Positions 32,667 to 40,031 of a DNA stretch of 64,000 nucleotides are shown one piece after another. Source of the stretch: Xanthomonas sp. NCPPB 1128. GTDB taxonomy: Bacteria; Pseudomonadota; Gammaproteobacteria; Xanthomonadales; Xanthomonadaceae. Position numbers and translations under genes: made by a program. Under the pieces are notes generated by a model. It was not told where the DNA came from and ran no database searches. It was given only the letters and a program-made list of their open reading frames with translations. The DNA lies in assembly GCF_001043115.1 (NCBI RefSeq), contig NZ_LFME01000001.1:310001-374000 (forward strand). Direction: 5' to 3'. Position 1 is the stretch's first letter. Each line of letters starts with the position of its first letter.

Positions 32667-34199
32667 TCACAGATCGAACTTGATGCCCTGCGCCAGCGGC
32701 AGCGAGTCGGAGTAGTTGATCGTGTTGGTCTGCCGGCGCATGTACACCTTCCACGCGTCCGAGCCGGACTCGCGGCCGCCGCCGGTGTCCTTCTCGCCGC
32801 CGAAGGCGCCGCCGATCTCGGCGCCGGAGGTGCCGATGTTGACGTTGGCGATGCCGCAGTCGCTGCCGGCCGCGGACAGGAACTTCTCCGCCGCCTTCAG
32901 GTTCTGGGTGAAGATCGACGAGGACAGTCCCTGCGGCACGCCGTTCTGCATGTCGATGGCCTCGTCCAGGGTGCTGTACTTCATCACGTACAGGATCGGG
33001 GCGAAGGTCTCGTGCTGGACGACCTCATCGCTGTTCTTCAGCCCGGTGACGATGGCCGGCAGCACGAAGTTGCCCGGACGGTCCAGCGCGGTGCCGCCGG
33101 TCTCGACGGTGCCGCCGGCGGCCTTGGCCTTGGCGATCGAGTCCAGGAACTGCTCGACCGCGCCGCGGCTGTTCAGCGGGCCCATCAGGTTGGCCGGGTC
33201 GGTGGGATCGCCGATCTTGCCTTCGACCTGCCTGTAGGCCTTGACCAGGGTCGCCAGCACGGTGTCGTAGATCGATTCGTGCACGATCAGCCGGCGCGTG
33301 GTGGTGCAGCGCTGGCCGGCGGTGCCGACCGCGCCGAACACGATGCCGGGCACCGCCAGTTTCAGGTCGGCGCTCTCGTCGAGGATGATGGCGTTGTTGC
33401 CGCCCAGTTCCAGCAGGCAGCGGCCCAGGCGGCGCGCGCACTTCTCGGCGACGTTGCGGCCGACCTGGGTGGAGCCGGTGAAGCTGATCAGCGGGATGCG
33501 GGTGTCCTCGACCAGGCGCTCGGACAGGGCCACGCCGGCGTCGTTGATCAGGAAGAAGATGTCCGGGAAGCCGGCGTCGCGCAGCGCCTCGTTGCAGATC
33601 TTCATCGATGCGATCGCGGTCAGCGGGGTCTTGTTGGACGGCTTCCAGATGCAGATGTCGCCGCAGATCGCCGCCAGGAACGCGTTCCAGCTCCACACCG
33701 CGACCGGGAAGTTGAACGCGCTGATGATGCCGACCAGGCCCAGCGGCTGGTACTGCTCGTACATGCGGTGGCCGGGGCGCTCCGAATGCAGGGTGTAGCC
33801 GTACAACATGCGGCTCTGGCCGACCGCGAAATCGGCGATGTCGATCATCTCCTGCACTTCGCCGTCGCCTTCCGGCTTGCTCTTGCCCATTTCCAGCGCG
33901 ACCAGCGAACCCAGCGCGTCCTTGTGCTTGCGCAGCGCTTCGCCGCACAGGCGCACCGCTTCGCCGCGGCGCGGCGCCGGAGTGGTGCGCCAGACCTTGA
34001 ACGCGGCCTGGGCGCGGGCCATCACCGTTTCGTAGTCCTGCTCGGTGGTGGCCTGCACCTCGGCGATGACGGCGTTGCTGGACGGGTTCAGCGGCTGCAG
34101 CACGCCGGCGCCGGTGGCGCTGGACCACTCGCCGTTGCCGAGGTAGGTGCCGGAGTTGGTGGCGGCAAGGCCGAGCGCCTTGAGCAGGTCAGCGGACAT
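32667..34199 (-). CDS. ALDH7-family aldehyde dehydrogenase (alpha-aminoadipic semialdehyde / piperideine-6-carboxylate type)
   Basis: NAD(P)-dependent aldehyde dehydrogenase of 510 residues, closest to ALDH7/AmaB enzymes of lysine degradation. Seen: [18 protein letters not shown] near residue 155, [11 protein letters not shown] near residue 183 (cofactor Lys), [10 protein letters not shown] near residue 235, [11 protein letters not shown] near residue 258 (catalytic Glu) and [13 protein letters not shown] near residue 291 (catalytic Cys). The ALDH7 assignment rests on the overall look of the GNNAI and QRCTTTRR blocks. It is monocistronic on the minus strand. Confidence 0.87.
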
Positions 34200-34424
34200 G
34201 GAATCTCCTGGGTTCGTTGCGACAGGGAAGGCGACCGCAGGCGGGGGACGCGGCGCGCGCAGCCGACAATTTTAGCAGACCGGACGCCGCCGGCCGCCGC
34301 CGCCGGCCTGAAGCGGCTGGCGAGCGCAAAAACGCACAGGCATCCCGCCGCGCGGCGCGGCTTGCATCGGGAAGCTAAGGGGGAGGCCACTGGCGACATG
34401 GCGGCCGCGGGCATGAACGAAGAA

Positions 34425-34501
34425 TGGTGACCCCGGCGCGATTCGAACGCACGACCTGTCCCTTAGGAGGGGACCGCTCTATCCAGCTGAGCTACGGGGC
34501 C
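34425..34501 (-). tRNA. tRNA-Arg (anticodon CCT)
   Basis: On the minus strand the acceptor arms GGCCCCG and CGGGGTC pair (one G-T), followed by discriminator A and encoded CCA (34425-34427). The anticodon loop is CTCCTAA in the stem GTCCC/GGGAC, giving CCT. The D-arm (TAGCTCAGCTGGATAGAGC) and T-loop (GTTCGAATC) are canonical. A minus-strand TAGAAT at 34517-34522 is a plausible -10. Confidence 0.95.
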
Positions 34502-34844
34502 ATTGGCCTGCCGGGGATTCTACGACGCTGAATCGCGCGTTGTCGCCCTGGCTTGCAATAACGTCCTCTACACCTTGTGCCGACGCGGCCTGAGCATCGC
34601 CCTGCGTAGGCTGCGTACGTCCGCTACTGCGGCGCGCGACGGCTCGCTCCGCGATCCCGCGTTGCCGCAGCGGCGACGGTCGATGGCGAAGTCATCCGCC
34701 ACGTCCGCGACAAGCGCCCCGCCCGCCCACTGCGGCGGGGCGATCGCCGCCGCGCATCGGCGGTCCTGGTCGCCTTGGCGTGACCGCCGGCTAGTCGGCG
34801 CGCACGTGGCGATTTCCACCCCCTATGCGAAGCAGGAGTGACTC
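34502..34844. other. Intergenic region between tRNA-Arg and lipoprotein gene
   Basis: No gene is supported. A 9-bp perfect hairpin (CGCCCCGCC at 34716-34724 with GGCGGGGCG at 34735-34743) is present. CAGGAGTGACTC just before 34845 is the ribosome binding site of the next gene. I see no strong promoter for that gene. Confidence 0.4.
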
Positions 34845-35186
34845 ATGAACACCGCAATGAAGATGGTCTTGGTCGGTTCGATGATGGCAGCGCTGGCAGC
34901 GTGCAAGCGCGATGAGCAACCCACCACCGATCCGAATGCGGCCAACCCGCCCGCCGCCGCCGACGGCAGCCCGGCGGGCGGCAGCACCGCACCGGCCGGC
35001 AGCACCAGCGGTGATGCCAGCGGCACCGCCACGGGCACCACCGGCACCGATGCCAGCCAAGGCACGATGCAGGGGCAGGACGGCACCTCGCCGACCACGC
35101 CGCCGCCGACCAACCCGCAGGATCCCGCCAATCCGGATCCGCAGCAGCCGCCGCAGACGCCGCCGGCAGATCAGAAGCAGCAGTAA
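34845..35186 (+). CDS. Small low-complexity lipoprotein
   Basis: 113 residues. A lipoprotein signal peptide (MNTAMKMVLVGSMMAALAAC) ends in the lipobox LAAC, with Cys20 as the lipidation site. The mature part is low complexity, rich in Gly, Ser, Thr, Pro, Asn, Asp and Gln (for example PADQKQQ at the end), with no fold expected. CAGGAG lies 8 bases upstream of ATG. The Lys-Arg-Asp-Glu after the Cys does not give a clear Asp+2 retention signal, so outer-membrane sorting is possible. Function unknown; conserved small lipoproteins of this sort occur in Xanthomonas. Confidence 0.75.
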   Translation: MNTAMKMVLVGSMMAALAACKRDEQPTTDPNAANPPAAADGSPAGGSTAPAGSTSGDASGTATGTTGTDASQGTMQGQDGTSPTTPPPTNPQDPANPDPQQPPQTPPADQKQQ

Positions 35187-35424
35187 GGCTTGCGCAAGCG
35201 CGCGGCGCCACGGCGTCGCGCGCTTGGTTGCCAGGGTCTTCGCGCACATGCCGAGCGCGGCGTTTTTCGCGTAGGCGCAAGCGCCGCGATCCGGCGCAAC
35301 GCTGGGTTTTCCGGCCTTTCGCGATAGTCACTTTTGCAACCGTTTTCTTCGGCCAGCAGGTCGATGCTGCGCTTGCACACGCGGCGCTTGACAGCGCCCC
35401 GGCGCATGATGTCCTCTTGCGTCC

Positions 35425-35559
35425 ATGCCTCAGGTCCTTGCCCACACCGCCCTCTCGCTTTCGCGTTCGCCTCGGCACGCGGCGGCAGTGGCTGCGGGCA
35501 TTACCACCGGTATTACCACCCTCACCATTCGCCCGGTGCGGCCCGTCGTCTTCGCCTGA
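35425..35559 (+). CDS. thrL: Threonine/isoleucine-rich thr operon leader peptide
   Basis: A 44-codon frame from ATG 35425 to TGA 35557-35559 contains the run ITTGITTLTI at codons 26-35 (five Thr and three Ile in ten codons), 90 bases before thrA ends its leader. E. coli ThrL has the same Thr/Ile-rich character and function. A GTG at 35488 in the same frame is an alternative start giving a 23-residue peptide. A perfect TTGACA (35388-35393) could be the promoter -35. The regulatory role is inferred from residue content and position. Confidence 0.65.
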   Translation: MPQVLAHTALSLSRSPRHAAAVAAGITTGITTLTIRPVRPVVFA

Positions 35560-35644
35560 TCGTCGAACACCACGGCCCCGCACCCGGATCAGGATGCGGG
35601 GGAATCCCTCGGCCTGATGCGAGCGGGGCCTCCACTCCGAGGTC
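35535..35644 (+). promoter_or_regulatory. Candidate thr attenuator with mutually exclusive hairpins
   Basis: Four complementary segments occur in order. GGTGCGG (35535-35541) can pair with CCGCACC (35578-35584). GGCCCCGC (35574-35581) can pair with GCGGGGCC (35623-35630), or CCCCGCA with TGCGGGG (35595-35601). GGCCTC (35627-35632) can pair with GAGGTC (35639-35644), which contains the thrA ribosome binding site. The last two pairings exclude each other. No U-tract is present, so control of translation initiation rather than termination is suggested. Confidence 0.5.
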
Positions 35645-35648
35645 TCCC

Positions 35649-38162
35649 ATGTCGCCCCCTGCTGTCGCCGCTTCGCTTGAATCCGCTGTAGATCCCGCGC
35701 TCGCCGCCGCCACTGTCGTGCACAAGTTCGGCGGCACCTCGGTGGCCGATGCCGAACGCTATCGCCATGTGGCGCAACTGCTGCTGGCGCGCCCGGAACG
35801 TCTCCAGGTCACCGTCGTCTCGGCGATGAAGGGCGTCACCGATGCCTTGATCGGCCTGGCCGAGCTCGCTGCGCGCGGCCACGGCGACTGGCGCGAGCGC
35901 TGGCACGAGACCCGCGCCCGCCATCGCGCCGCGGCGGTGGCCCTGCTCGGCGAGCATGCCGGCTCCACGGTGGAATGGCTGGACGCGCGCTTCGAACACT
36001 TGGCCGAGATCCTTGCCGCACTTGCGGTGATCGGCGAGTTGCCGCGCGAAGTGCTGGACCGCGTGCAGGGGCTGGGCGAGGTGTATTCGGCGCAGCTGCT
36101 CGGCGACCACCTGCGTGCGCTGGGCGAGGACTGCGCGGTGCTGGACGCGCGCGAGGTGCTGGTGGTCGACCGCGGCGAATTGGGCGTGGACGTGGACTGG
36201 TCCGCCAGCGCGCAGCGCCTGGCGCAATGGCGCGCGGAGCATCCGCAGCAACGCATCGTGGTCACCGGCTTCGTCGCCCGCGACCGCGCCGGCCGCATCA
36301 CCACCCTCGGCCGCAACGGCAGCGACTACTCCGGCGCGATCTTCGCCGCGCTGTTCGACGCCGCCGAGCTGCACATCTGGACCGACGTCGACGGCGTGCT
36401 CTCGGCCGACCCGCGGGTGGTGCCCGAAGCGGTGCAACTGGAGACGCTCAGCTACGACGAGGCTTGCGAACTGGCGTACTTCGGCGCCAAGGTGGTGCAC
36501 CCGCAGACCATGTCGCCGGCGATCGAGCGCGGCCTGCCGATCATCATCCGCAACACCTTCCAGCCCGAGCATCCGGGCACCCGCATCACCGCCAGCAGCG
36601 CCACCAGCGGGCCGATCAAGGGGCTGACGCTGAGCCCGGATCTGGCCGTGCTCAACCTCGAAGGCACCGGCCTGATCGGCGTGCCCGGCACCGCCGAGCG
36701 CGTGTTCGCCGCGCTGCGCAATGCGCGGGTGTCGGTGGTGATGATTTCGCAGGGCTCGTCCGAACATTCCATCTGCTGCGTGGTGCGGCAGAACGAGGCC
36801 GAGCGCGCCCGCGACGCGGTGCTCTCGGCCTTCGCCCACGAGCTGGTGGTGGGCCAGGTGCAGCGCGTGCAGCTGACCACCGGCATCAGCGTGCTGGCCG
36901 CGGTCGGCGACGGCATGGCCGGGCAGCCCGGCGTGGCCGCGCGCCTGTTCGAGTCGCTGGGCCGCGCCCAGGTCAACATCCTGGCGATCGCGCAGGGCTC
37001 GTCCGAGCGCAACATCTCGGTGGCCATCGACAGCGCGCATGCGACCAAGGCGCTGCGCGCCGCACATGCCGGCTTCTGGCTGTCGCCGCAGACCTTCTCG
37101 GTCGGCGTGATCGGGCCGGGCAACGTCGGCGCGGCGCTGCTGGACCAGTTGCGTGCGGCGCAGCCGCAGCTGCTGGCCAAGGCCAACCTCGACCTGCGCC
37201 TGCGCGCGGTGGCCTCGCGCAGCACGATGCGCCTGGAGCCGCGTGCCTTCGCCGGCGACTGGCGGCAGGCGCTGGCGGCCGGACAGCAGCCGACCGATCT
37301 GGACGCGTTCACTGCGCACCTGTTGTCGGCGCATCTGCCGCATGCGGTGATCATCGACTGCAGCGGCAGCGCCGACGTCGCCGACCGCTACGCCGGCTGG
37401 CTGGCCGCCGGCATCCATGTGGTGACCCCGAACAAGCAGGCCGGCGCCGGGCCGTTGCCGCGCTTCCACGCCATCCGCGCCGCGGCCGCCGCCAGCGGCG
37501 CGCGCTTCCGCTACGAGGCCACGGTCGGCGCCGGCCTGCCGGTGATCACCACCTTGCGCGACCTGGTCGATACCGGCGACGCCGTCACCGCGATCGAAGG
37601 CATCTTCTCCGGCACCCTGGCCTGGTTGTTCAACAAGTACGACGGCAGCGTGCCGTTCGCGCAACTGGTCGCCGAGGCGCGCGGCATGGGCTACACCGAA
37701 CCGGACCCGCGCGACGACCTGTCCGGTACCGACGTGGCGCGCAAGCTGGTGATCCTGGCGCGCGAGGCCGGGCACGAACTGAGCCTGGAGGACGTGGCGG
37801 TGGAAAGCCTGGTGCCGGAAGCGCTGCGCCAGGCCAGCGTGGACGATTTCATGGCGCGCCTGCACGAAGTCGATGCCGCCTTCGCGCAACGCCTGCAGGC
37901 GGCCAAGGCGCGCGGCTGCGTGCTGCGCTACGTGGCGCGGCTGGTGCCGGGGCATGCGCCCAGCGTCGGCCTGGTGGAGCTGCCGGCCGACCATGCCTTC
38001 GCCAACCTGCGCCTCACCGACAACGTGGTGCAGTTCACCACCCGCCGCTACTGCGCCAATCCTCTGGTGGTGCAGGGGCCGGGCGCTGGCCCGGAAGTGA
38101 CCGCCGCCGGCGTGTTCGCCGACCTGCTGCGGGTGGCGGCGGGCGAGGGCGCGCGCCTGTGA
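35649..38162 (+). CDS. thrA: Bifunctional aspartokinase / homoserine dehydrogenase I
   Basis: Protein of 837 residues carrying the first and third steps from aspartate to threonine. The aspartokinase domain (about 22-310) starts with [16 protein letters not shown] and has [14 protein letters not shown] and [12 protein letters not shown]. Two ACT regulatory domains follow (about 330-480; [41 protein letters not shown]). The homoserine dehydrogenase domain (about 485-837) has [52 protein letters not shown] and the catalytic Asp/Lys region [20 protein letters not shown]. The ATG at 35649 follows GAGGTCTCCC. Feedback by threonine is expected for the family. Confidence 0.95.
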
Positions 38163-39127
38163 GCCGGATGCAGACGCTGCCGGCCGCTGCTATCGGCACC
38201 GCCGCGCTGCCGGCGCAGGCACGTGCGTTCGCACCGGCCTCGGTGGCCAACGTGGCGGTGGGCTTCGACCTGCTGGGCTATGCAGTGGAGGGCGTCGGCG
38301 ACACGGTGACGGTGCGCCGCATCGATGCGCCCGAGGTGCGCATCGTCGCGATCCGCGGCACCACCGTGGCCTTGCCGCTGGAGGCCGCGCGCAACACCGC
38401 CGGCGCCGCCCTGATGTCGCTGCGCGAGGCCTTGGCGCTGCCGTTCGGCTTCGAACTGGAGATCGACAAGGGCATCCCGCTCAGCTCCGGCATGGGCGGC
38501 TCGGCCGCGTCGTGCGTGGCCGCGCTGGTGGCGGCCAACGCCTTGCTCGAGGCGCCGCTGTCGCGCGATCAGCTGTATCGCTACGCGCTGGACGGCGAGG
38601 CGGTGGCCAGTGGCAGCCGCCATGGCGACAATCTCGGGCCGATGCTGCTCGGCGGGCTGGTGCTGTCGACCCTGGAGCGGATGGTGCCGGTACCGGTGCC
38701 GAGCGGCTGGCACAGCCTGCTGGTGCATCCGGACGCGACGTTGGAGACCCGCCACGCGCGCGCGGCGCTGGCCGGCGAGTACCGGCTTGGCGAGTTCGTG
38801 GCGCAGAGCGCGAACCTGGCATTGGTGCTGGCGGGCTGCCATGCCGGCGATGAGGCACTGGTACGCGCCGGCTTGCGCGACGTGCTGATCGAGCCACGGC
38901 GCGCGCCGCTGATTGTCGGCTTCGACGCGGCCAAGGCGGCGGCGCTGGCCGCGGGGGCGATGGGTGCGGGCATTTCCGGCGCCGGCCCGAGCGTATTCGC
39001 CTGGTTCGCCAGCCGTGCCGAGGCCGAGGCCGCGGCCCCGGCGGTCCAGGCGGCCTTCGCTGATGTCGGTTTTGGCAGCCAGCACTGGGTGTCGCCGTTG
39101 CAGTGTCCGGGCGCGACGTTGCTGTAG
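38159..39127 (+). CDS. thrB: Homoserine kinase
   Basis: GHMP kinase of about 322 residues that phosphorylates homoserine for threonine synthase. Seen: [20 protein letters not shown] near residue 25, the ATP-binding loop [19 protein letters not shown] near residue 105, [15 protein letters not shown] near residue 160 and [17 protein letters not shown] near residue 270. The GTG at 38159 overlaps the thrA stop (GTGA); ATG 38168 in the same frame is the alternative. Cotranscribed with thrA. Confidence 0.93.
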
Positions 39128-39504
39128 TGGAGTGTTGGCGCGGCGCGTCGACGCCTTTGTTGTTGTCGTTACTGCCGCTGCCGCTATTGTTGCTGTTGCT
39201 GTTGCTGATTTCGAATCTGCTTTTGCTTTTGCTGTCGCAGTAGCTGTTGTCGTTGCTGTTGCTCTGGTCGTTGCTCTTGTTGTTGCTGTTGCTGTTGCCG
39301 TACCGGGTTCCCTTCCGAAGCGGCGGCCATCGCGGGGAAACACCCGAAGGGCGGCGTACATGGATGTACGCCGTCCGCGGCAGGGGCAGGATGCCCCTTC
39401 CGCGGATCCCCGTGATGGACGCGGACCCGGAGCGCGCAGCGCGGAGGGCGCGAAGGCAGGGCGCGCTTGACCAGCCTTCGGCTGTGGTAAAGCGCTTCTT
39501 TTGG

Positions 39505-39537
39505 TTACCTTTTCTTTGCGCGAGCAAAGAAAAGTAA
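39505..39537. repeat. TTTTCTTTGC/GCAAAGAAAA hairpin, left copy
   Basis: The arm TTACCTTTTCTTTGC pairs with GCAAAGAAAAGTAA (one extra C on the left arm), 4-base loop. Its sister copy is at 39715-39747 in the same composite element. Unlike its surroundings it is A/T-rich. Confidence 0.75.
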
Positions 39538-39586
39538 CTCGCCCGCAAGGGCGAAAGCCGTTGCTGTTGTTGTTGCTTAAGACCAT

Positions 39587-39653
39587 GTAGGAGCGGCTTC
39601 AGCCGCGACAGGTGCTCGTCCATCGGCTAGGTCGCGGTTGAAGCCGCTCCTAC
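39587..39653. repeat. GTAG-type REP inverted pair, centre of the composite element
   Basis: GTAGGAGCGGCTTCAGCCGC begins at 39587 and its inverted partner ends GCGGTTGAAGCCGCTCCTAC at 39653. It belongs to the same family as 11984-12058 and 44284-44347. Confidence 0.88.
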
Positions 39654-39714
39654 AAGTTCCGCTCGTCCGATAGGGAAAAAGCATCAGCAGCAACAGCTTT
39701 CGCCTGGCGGCGAG

Positions 39715-39747
39715 TCACTTTTCTTTGCTTGTGCAAAGAAAAGTAAC
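39715..39747. repeat. TTTTCTTTGC/GCAAAGAAAA hairpin, right copy
   Basis: TCACTTTTCTTTGC (39715-39728) pairs with GCAAAGAAAAGTAAC (39733-39747). It is the mirror partner of the hairpin at 39505-39537 about the central REP. Confidence 0.75.
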
Positions 39748-40031
39748 CAAAAGAAAGCACACCCCGCAGCGCGCCCTCCGCGCTACGCGCTCCGGGTCCG
39801 CAGCCACGACGGGCATTTTTCGACGGCACATCCATGTGCCGGCGAAAAACGACGCGCATCCTGCGCGTCGCCCTTCGGGTACTCGCCCGCCGCGGCTGCC
39901 GCGCCGAGGGGGCCCCGGGTGAAGCAGAAGCGCAACAGCGAAAGCAACAGCAACAGCTAGAGCAACAGCCAAAGCAACAGCCAAAGCCGAGAATGCCAGT
40001 GCGACCGAATTCCCCTGCCACCGGAACCAAC

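Follow-up and report, generated by a model that had tools for sequence, protein, structure and literature searches.

The window analysed here, a stretch of 64,000 nucleotides from the genome of Xanthomonas sp. NCPPB 1128, contains a short open reading frame with Thr and Ile codons ahead of the thrA gene. Attenuation through such codons is known as a transcription switch. The question raised by the locus is whether the short frame controls thrA, and at which level. We consider it likely that the region is a ribosome-mediated thr attenuator that senses Thr and Ile, is carried on a leaderless leader mRNA and acts on the translation of thrA. Comparison of related sequences establishes the putative leader, its control codons, three predicted pairings, the absence of a long U-tract and the position of a -35-like element. 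The leaderless 5′ end, the sensing of Thr and Ile, the direction of the response and the translational output are the parts that we infer. The coordinates of the features are collected in Table 1.

Table 1. Features of the thr leader region in the window
Feature	Positions	Strand	Description
Predicted -35 element TTGACA	35388..35393	+	37 nt before leader AUG
Leader peptide ORF	35425..35559	+	ATG to TGA, 44 codons, 44 aa (MPQVLAHTALSLSRSPRHAAAVAAGITTGITTLTIRPVRPVVFA); probably leaderless mRNA
Thr/Ile control codons ITTGITTLTI	35500..35529	+	Run ends at codon -10 from stop
Segment 1	35535..35554	+	GGTGCGG core (35535-35541) and 3′ extension inside last leader codons
Segment 2	35564..35584	+	Core GGCCCCGCACC (35574-35584); predicted partner of 1, 2′ and 3
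Segment 2′ TGCGGGG	35595..35601	+	Predicted local hairpin with 35576-35582; stem like that of the E. coli thr terminator, no U-tract
Segment 3 GCGGGGCCTC	35623..35632	+	Predicted to pair with 2 (anti-sequestor) or 4 (sequestor)
Segment 4 GAGGTCTC	35639..35646	+	Contains thrA Shine-Dalgarno GAGG; predicted hairpin of -12.2 kcal/mol in window
thrA, putative regulated gene	35649..38162	+	Bifunctional aspartate kinase/homoserine dehydrogenase; Pfam PF00696, PF00742, PF03447, ACT domains
GHMP kinase, thrB-like, next gene	38159..39127	+	PF00288/PF08544; start approximate

The thrA product has 837 aa and consists of aspartate kinase, ACT and homoserine dehydrogenase domains. The GHMP kinase gene and a threonine synthase gene lie downstream of thrA and identify the locus as a thr region. 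The initial annotation had placed a leader peptide with the run ITTGITTLTI ahead of thrA, and both the frame and the run are present there. The leader product ends with GITTGITTLTIRPVRPVVFA, and the thrA ATG (35649) is located 89 nt beyond the leader frame. A megablast search of phage records gave no match. Ahead of the thr leader, a tRNA gene was detected on the minus strand (34428-34501, 61 bits). The thrB-like frame and the threonine synthase frame are separated by a gap of about 0.7 kb (39128-39830), in which there are degenerate TTG/CTG runs as well as an inverted repeat of the form GTAGGAGCGGCTTCAGCCGCGAC ... GTCGCGGTTGAAGCCGCTCCTAC at approximately 39588-39656. Transcription of thrC as a unit of its own is therefore possible at this locus.

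Relatives of ThrA were obtained from 80 named contigs and from 395 genomes of the family (30 loci taken), and further ones from 60 of the 395 genomes searched again (30 loci) and from 20 upstream regions. Leaders were scored by the number of Thr and Ile residues in the best 12-residue window (T/I score). A T/I-rich frame was found at the first pass in 107 of 110 loci; the remaining three lacked only the anchor motif, and a T/I-rich leader was read there with a looser anchor. In the distant set, 47 of the 50 loci taken were anchored, and 40 of these 47 carry a T/I-rich leader. In total, 150 of the 157 family loci that could be anchored have such a leader ahead of thrA, with duplicates and the window included in the count. 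The 150 accepted leaders have scores of 5-11 (one of 5, in L156, four of 6, the others at least 7), and the seven family loci with a thrA homologue and no T/I-rich leader (L123-L128, L134) have scores of 2-4. These seven loci and three without an anchor (L120, L159, L162) were left out of the counts. Removal of rows that were more than 93% redundant reduced the 150 leaders to 66 representatives. A further 20 regions came from members of the order that lie outside the family, and 18 of them were anchored. Four of these 18 carry a T/I-rich leader with scores of 8-9, namely L163, L165 and L166 from one other family and L167 from a second; the other 14 have scores of 2-5, with three at 5, and were counted as having no leader. 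Since the leader is present in nearly all family loci but in few outside the family, the leader system is, judging by its distribution, old in the Xanthomonadaceae lineage and not order-wide. One record, titled Bacillus subtilis SK7B5 (L047), contains a Stenotrophomonas-like thrA and leader with 84% identity to the window protein and is probably mislabelled or contaminated.

The start of the leader transcript was assessed from the upstream sequences. In each representative the pairs of an in-frame ATG and a TTGAC 28-60 nt apart were listed, and the pair closest to 38 was taken. Of the 66 representatives, 63 have a TTGAC 36-39 nt ahead of an in-frame leader ATG (L132, L148 and L158 have none), compared with 10 of 1320 shuffled upstream stretches. 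It is followed by A in 56 and by G in 7 of the 63. When these are aligned on the ATG, T occurs at -12 in 32, T at -7 in 47 and C at -1 in 59 of them, and a Shine-Dalgarno-like 4-mer precedes the leader ATG in none of the 63. The -10 element of the window leader is weak, and no sigma-70 site was predicted there. With the usual promoter spacing, transcription would begin at the leader AUG or immediately ahead of it. The position of TTGAC and the lack of a Shine-Dalgarno-like motif therefore suggest that the leader mRNA is probably leaderless, with its 5′ end at the AUG or a few nucleotides from it. When the strain's genome was scanned for further leaders preceded by TTGACA at the same distance, 18 matches on both strands were listed, versus 30 for the reversed control pattern. 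A leaderless start at the leader ATG is described for trpL of Sinorhizobium meliloti in the accessible text of PMC7298713, which deals with transcription attenuation and with Trp, in both respects different from the thr leader.

The initial annotation had proposed three alternative pairings between the leader and thrA, and the complementarity of all three was confirmed. GGTGCGG (35535-35541) matches CCGCACC (35578-35584) in pairing 1:2, GGCCCCGC (35574-35581) matches GCGGGGCC (35623-35630) in pairing 2:3, and GGCCTC (35627-35632) matches GAGGTC (35639-35644) with one G-U pair in pairing 3:4. The accompanying caveat that pairings are easy to find in GC-rich sequence was well placed. The window leader on its own folds much like its shuffles, with energies that differ from theirs by less than one standard deviation (z -0.94, with 27 of 200 shuffles at least as good; z -0.29 and 75 of 200 in a second fold). 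Conservation of the pairings was examined in an unfitted MAFFT alignment of the 66 sequences (A1), in which segments 3 and 4 are out of register in some rows, and in an alignment of 32 closer sequences (A2). Pairing 1:2 is formed in 80.7% of the cells of A1 and 93.9% of those of A2, compared with at most 51.5% and 51.7%, respectively, when the partners are slid. For 2:3, 63.4% of the cells are paired on A1 versus 61.5% when slid by +1 column, and 85.7% on A2. For 3:4 the value on A1 is 73.2% versus 70.6%, which is no better than shuffles, and on A2 87.5%, without covariation. RNAalifold returned no consensus pairs for the 66 sequences of A1.

An alignment-free swap test was also carried out, in which duplex energies of native partners were compared with those of partners swapped between species in 5000 permutations. 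The segments of the 66 representatives were cut by their distance from the leader stop or the thrA start. Native partners are better than swapped ones for 1:2 (z -6.1, 0 of 5000 permutations) and for 2:3 (z -9.8, 0 of 5000), and no better for the control combinations 1:3, 1:4 and 2:4. For 3:4, this crude first cut gave z -0.4; a cut anchored on the Shine-Dalgarno sequence, chosen after this result, gave z -4.4 and 0 of 5000. The arms match the Shine-Dalgarno type of their lineage: rows with a GAGG-type Shine-Dalgarno (35 of 66) reach -12.9 kcal/mol when the arms come from their own group and -8.6 kcal/mol with GGAG-type arms, and the difference is small for the GGAG-type rows (23 of 66), with -10.7 kcal/mol for their own arms and -10.3 for the other ones. 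A hairpin with at least 75% of the Shine-Dalgarno bases paired and an energy of -6 or lower was found at 53 of the 66 thrA starts versus 20 of 50 other gene starts, the latter being long-ORF starts picked by a script in the loci of the representatives and in the window. Hiding of the Shine-Dalgarno sequence at thrA is enriched, not unique. Coevolution of the partners suggests that 1:2, 2:3 and 3:4 are mutually exclusive helices, with some alignment measures weaker or negative. The annotation was open to refutation by a lack of conservation, and both the Thr/Ile run and the pairings passed this check. The reading as translational attenuation is supported by the conserved leader, Thr/Ile run and pairings and by the three swap tests.

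The level at which the leader acts was considered against the enterobacterial thr leader (thrL; Rfam RF00506). In thrL, as here, a Thr/Ile peptide precedes aspartate kinase/homoserine dehydrogenase, and CCGCACC can pair either with the GGTGCGG of the leader end or with a TGCGGG arm farther downstream. After GGTGCGGGC, the end of E. coli thrL, come GCCCGCACC, GTGCGGGC and nine T, and these three arms match segments 1, 2 and 2′ in order and core sequence. Both descent and convergence are compatible with this likeness. The Rfam search did not report RF00506 at E up to 1 in the window region 34000-37000 or in 21 relatives, and the positive control on E. coli gave 122.1 bits; membership of this Rfam family was therefore rejected. 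The Xanthomonadaceae leaders differ from thrL in that no T run longer than 4 follows and in that they have an extra segment 3 and a Shine-Dalgarno-hiding arm 4, for which no thrL counterpart is seen on reading the sequence alone. Between 20 nt after the leader stop and 15 nt after the thrA start, the longest T run is 4 and occurs in 2 of the 66 representatives (L116, L154), which bears out the annotation's remark that the U-tract of E. coli is missing. The 10 nt after the Shine-Dalgarno sequence contain on average 2.8 T in the 66 representatives, with a maximum of 6 (L050, L154). No terminator-like site was predicted in positions 35000-36000 of the window. An intrinsic terminator with a U-tract as last arm was rejected on these grounds. 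The lack of both long T runs and a terminator site means that the output is most simply translation of thrA.

The same leader may instead control transcription, through the 2:2′ hairpin or through Rho, which would act on the untranslated leader RNA once 3:4 is closed, the hiding of the Shine-Dalgarno sequence then being secondary. The hairpin 2:2′ shares its core with the E. coli thr terminator and is conserved, with 85.2% of the cells paired on A1 versus at most 56.6% when slid and 93.8% on A2, without covariation there. The Rho alternative is compatible with the sequence. The short T runs and the missing terminator site count against transcriptional control, as does the location of 3:4 on the Shine-Dalgarno sequence with native partners that fit better than swapped ones. 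We regard transcriptional control as unlikely, and it is the alternative that keeps the most weight. The sequences suggest a translational variant of the classical Thr/Ile attenuator.

In the proposed translational attenuator, segment 1 would by default pair with 2 and segment 3 with 4, so that the thrA Shine-Dalgarno sequence is covered (OFF). With too little charged Thr-tRNA or Ile-tRNA, the ribosome would slow on the last Thr/Ile codons and mask segment 1, 2:3 would form, and segment 4 would be freed (ON). When the amino acids are ample, ribosomes would finish the leader and leave, and 1:2 and 3:4 would re-form. This switch was modelled by calculating the probabilities of the three helices (P12/P23/P34) with a ribosome masking segment 1, A-site positions being given as leader codons. 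The ribosome-free window leader gives 0.71/0.06/0.92. These values become 0.13/0.86/0.43 for an A site at -10 and 0/1.0/0.02 for one at -9; between -11 and -9, 2:3 displaces the Shine-Dalgarno-hiding hairpin stepwise. Four front edges (12 to 18 nt) were combined with three 3′ ends, and in these settings 1:2 disappears between -13 and -10. At -9, P34 is at most 0.12 in 9 of the 12 settings, and the other three (0.28, 0.66 and 0.43) all have a front edge of 12. At -10 and with longer 3′ ends, 2:3 has a competitor in the local 2:2′ hairpin, and P34 is therefore often 0.36-0.65. Inclusion of more of thrA in the fold raises 2:2′ up to 0.65, and P34 is about 0.6 at -11 and -10 for several footprints. 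The switch point in the model is the end of the Thr/Ile run. In the model, the annotation's proposal that a ribosome stalled on the Thr/Ile codons releases thrA applies mainly to late stalls, with the A site at about -12 to -9; at -14 and -13, 1:2 is mostly intact.

The effect is less pronounced in the family as a whole. With the A site at -10, the mean P23 of the 66 sequences rises from 0.17 to 0.40 and P34 falls from 0.70 to 0.59. The 32 nearer sequences change from 0.24 to 0.62 and from 0.77 to 0.56, respectively, and the 34 distant ones show barely any switching in helix probabilities. Counting changes greater than 0.2, P23 increases in 28 of the 66 sequences and P34 decreases in 20. The Shine-Dalgarno sequence of ribosome-free leaders is unpaired with a mean of 0.17 in natural versus 0.31 in shuffled sequences. 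A stall at -10 raises the natural mean to 0.22; among 66 natural leaders one gains more than 0.3, compared with 22 among 660 shuffled ones. Modelled exposure of the Shine-Dalgarno sequence upon stalling is thus weak across the family.

The annotation had further assumed that a ribosome at the leader stop codon crowds segment 2 and allows 3:4 to close. The model does not support this at ordinary footprints, since with front edges of 12-16 nt 2:3 is still formed (P 0.84-1.0); only at +18 does 3:4 come back in part (0.26-0.56). In terms of the model, OFF is better taken as the ribosome-free state after release and refolding, which is the simpler route. The persistence of the modelled ON state with a ribosome at the stop codon is also what would be expected if translation of the leader itself, not starvation, opens thrA and couples it to general translation. 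Such coupling leaves unexplained why Thr/Ile codons are conserved before segment 1 and why ATT is preferred among the Ile codons, and we consider it quite unlikely.

Among the 66 representatives, Thr or Ile prevails at codons -10 to -19 (at codon -17, Thr in 44 and Ile in 20) and drops off at -9. The Ile codons between -24 and -9 are ATT in 102 of 128 cases, compared with 104 of 1533 (7%) in the thrA genes. Fisher's test on a slightly different background gave p of about 4e-79, a value that is only indicative for related sequences. Gly codons in the same part of the leader are GGT in 51 of 97 cases versus 352 of 3737 in thrA. The GGT codons are often part of ACCGGTACC repeats, from which a small hairpin could arise among the control codons.

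Segment 1 falls in the last leader codons. For the Arg codon at -6, 55 of 66 rows use CGG, which makes up 13.9% of the Arg codons in thrA; this preference argues that the RNA, and not the peptide alone, is under selection. Most Xanthomonas and Stenotrophomonas leaders end with VRPVVFA or close forms, as might be expected of an arrest peptide or a trans-acting peptide with an important C-terminus. In other lineages the ends are VRSVMPG, MRLGVVD or VRTGVSS, and GGTGCGG is retained while the peptide end varies, three rows having a compensated GGATGCGG that faces CCGCATCC. The variable C-terminus, the retained segment 1 and the CGG choice led us to reject an arrest peptide, and a function of the peptide itself is very improbable. 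Chance complementarity in GC-rich sequence, which would agree with the ordinary single-sequence folds, is ruled out for practical purposes by the swap tests and the conservation.

Several known systems share parts of the proposed translational attenuator. In ermC/cat-type translational attenuators and in mycobacterial poly-Cys leaderless uORFs, the ribosome-free RNA is OFF and a stalled ribosome frees the downstream start; inducers and genes are other than those of the thr leader. T-boxes sense tRNA directly. The accessible text of PMC1262725 describes LEU elements and ileS T-boxes of Actinobacteria as predicted leaders that sequester the Shine-Dalgarno sequence, the same output as proposed here, in another taxon and for other amino acids. 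The LEU elements described there differ from the thr leader in that the partner of the Shine-Dalgarno sequence is the run of Leu codons.

A possible, though rather doubtful, origin of the system is that an enteric-type thr transcription attenuator turned translational in an ancestor shared by Xanthomonadaceae and a neighbouring family of their order, perhaps Rhodanobacteraceae. The 2:2′ hairpin without U-tract would be the surviving terminator stem, to which a new segment that pairs with 2 and hides the Shine-Dalgarno sequence was added, on a leaderless mRNA. If this is true, the conversion of the output could be traced within one operon. A family-wide version that hides the Shine-Dalgarno sequence and is read from a probably leaderless mRNA would imply that sensing module and output are separable in evolution. 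A terminator-based survey states, in its accessible text, that translational attenuators go undetected by it (PMC2965389), and a translational thr leader would escape surveys of this kind. Among the literature matches listed, no title or abstract beginning was concerned with a Xanthomonas thr leader. The most likely earlier description is reportedly that of Vitreschak et al. 2004. The claim to novelty concerns the mechanism, and priority is uncertain, with Vitreschak et al. 2004 and Lopatovskaya et al. 2010 as possible earlier mentions.

In four distant relatives, matches to the TPP riboswitch were observed near the thr leader, at positions 290-385 of L155, 438-540 of L156, 257-358 of L157 and 348-446 of L160.
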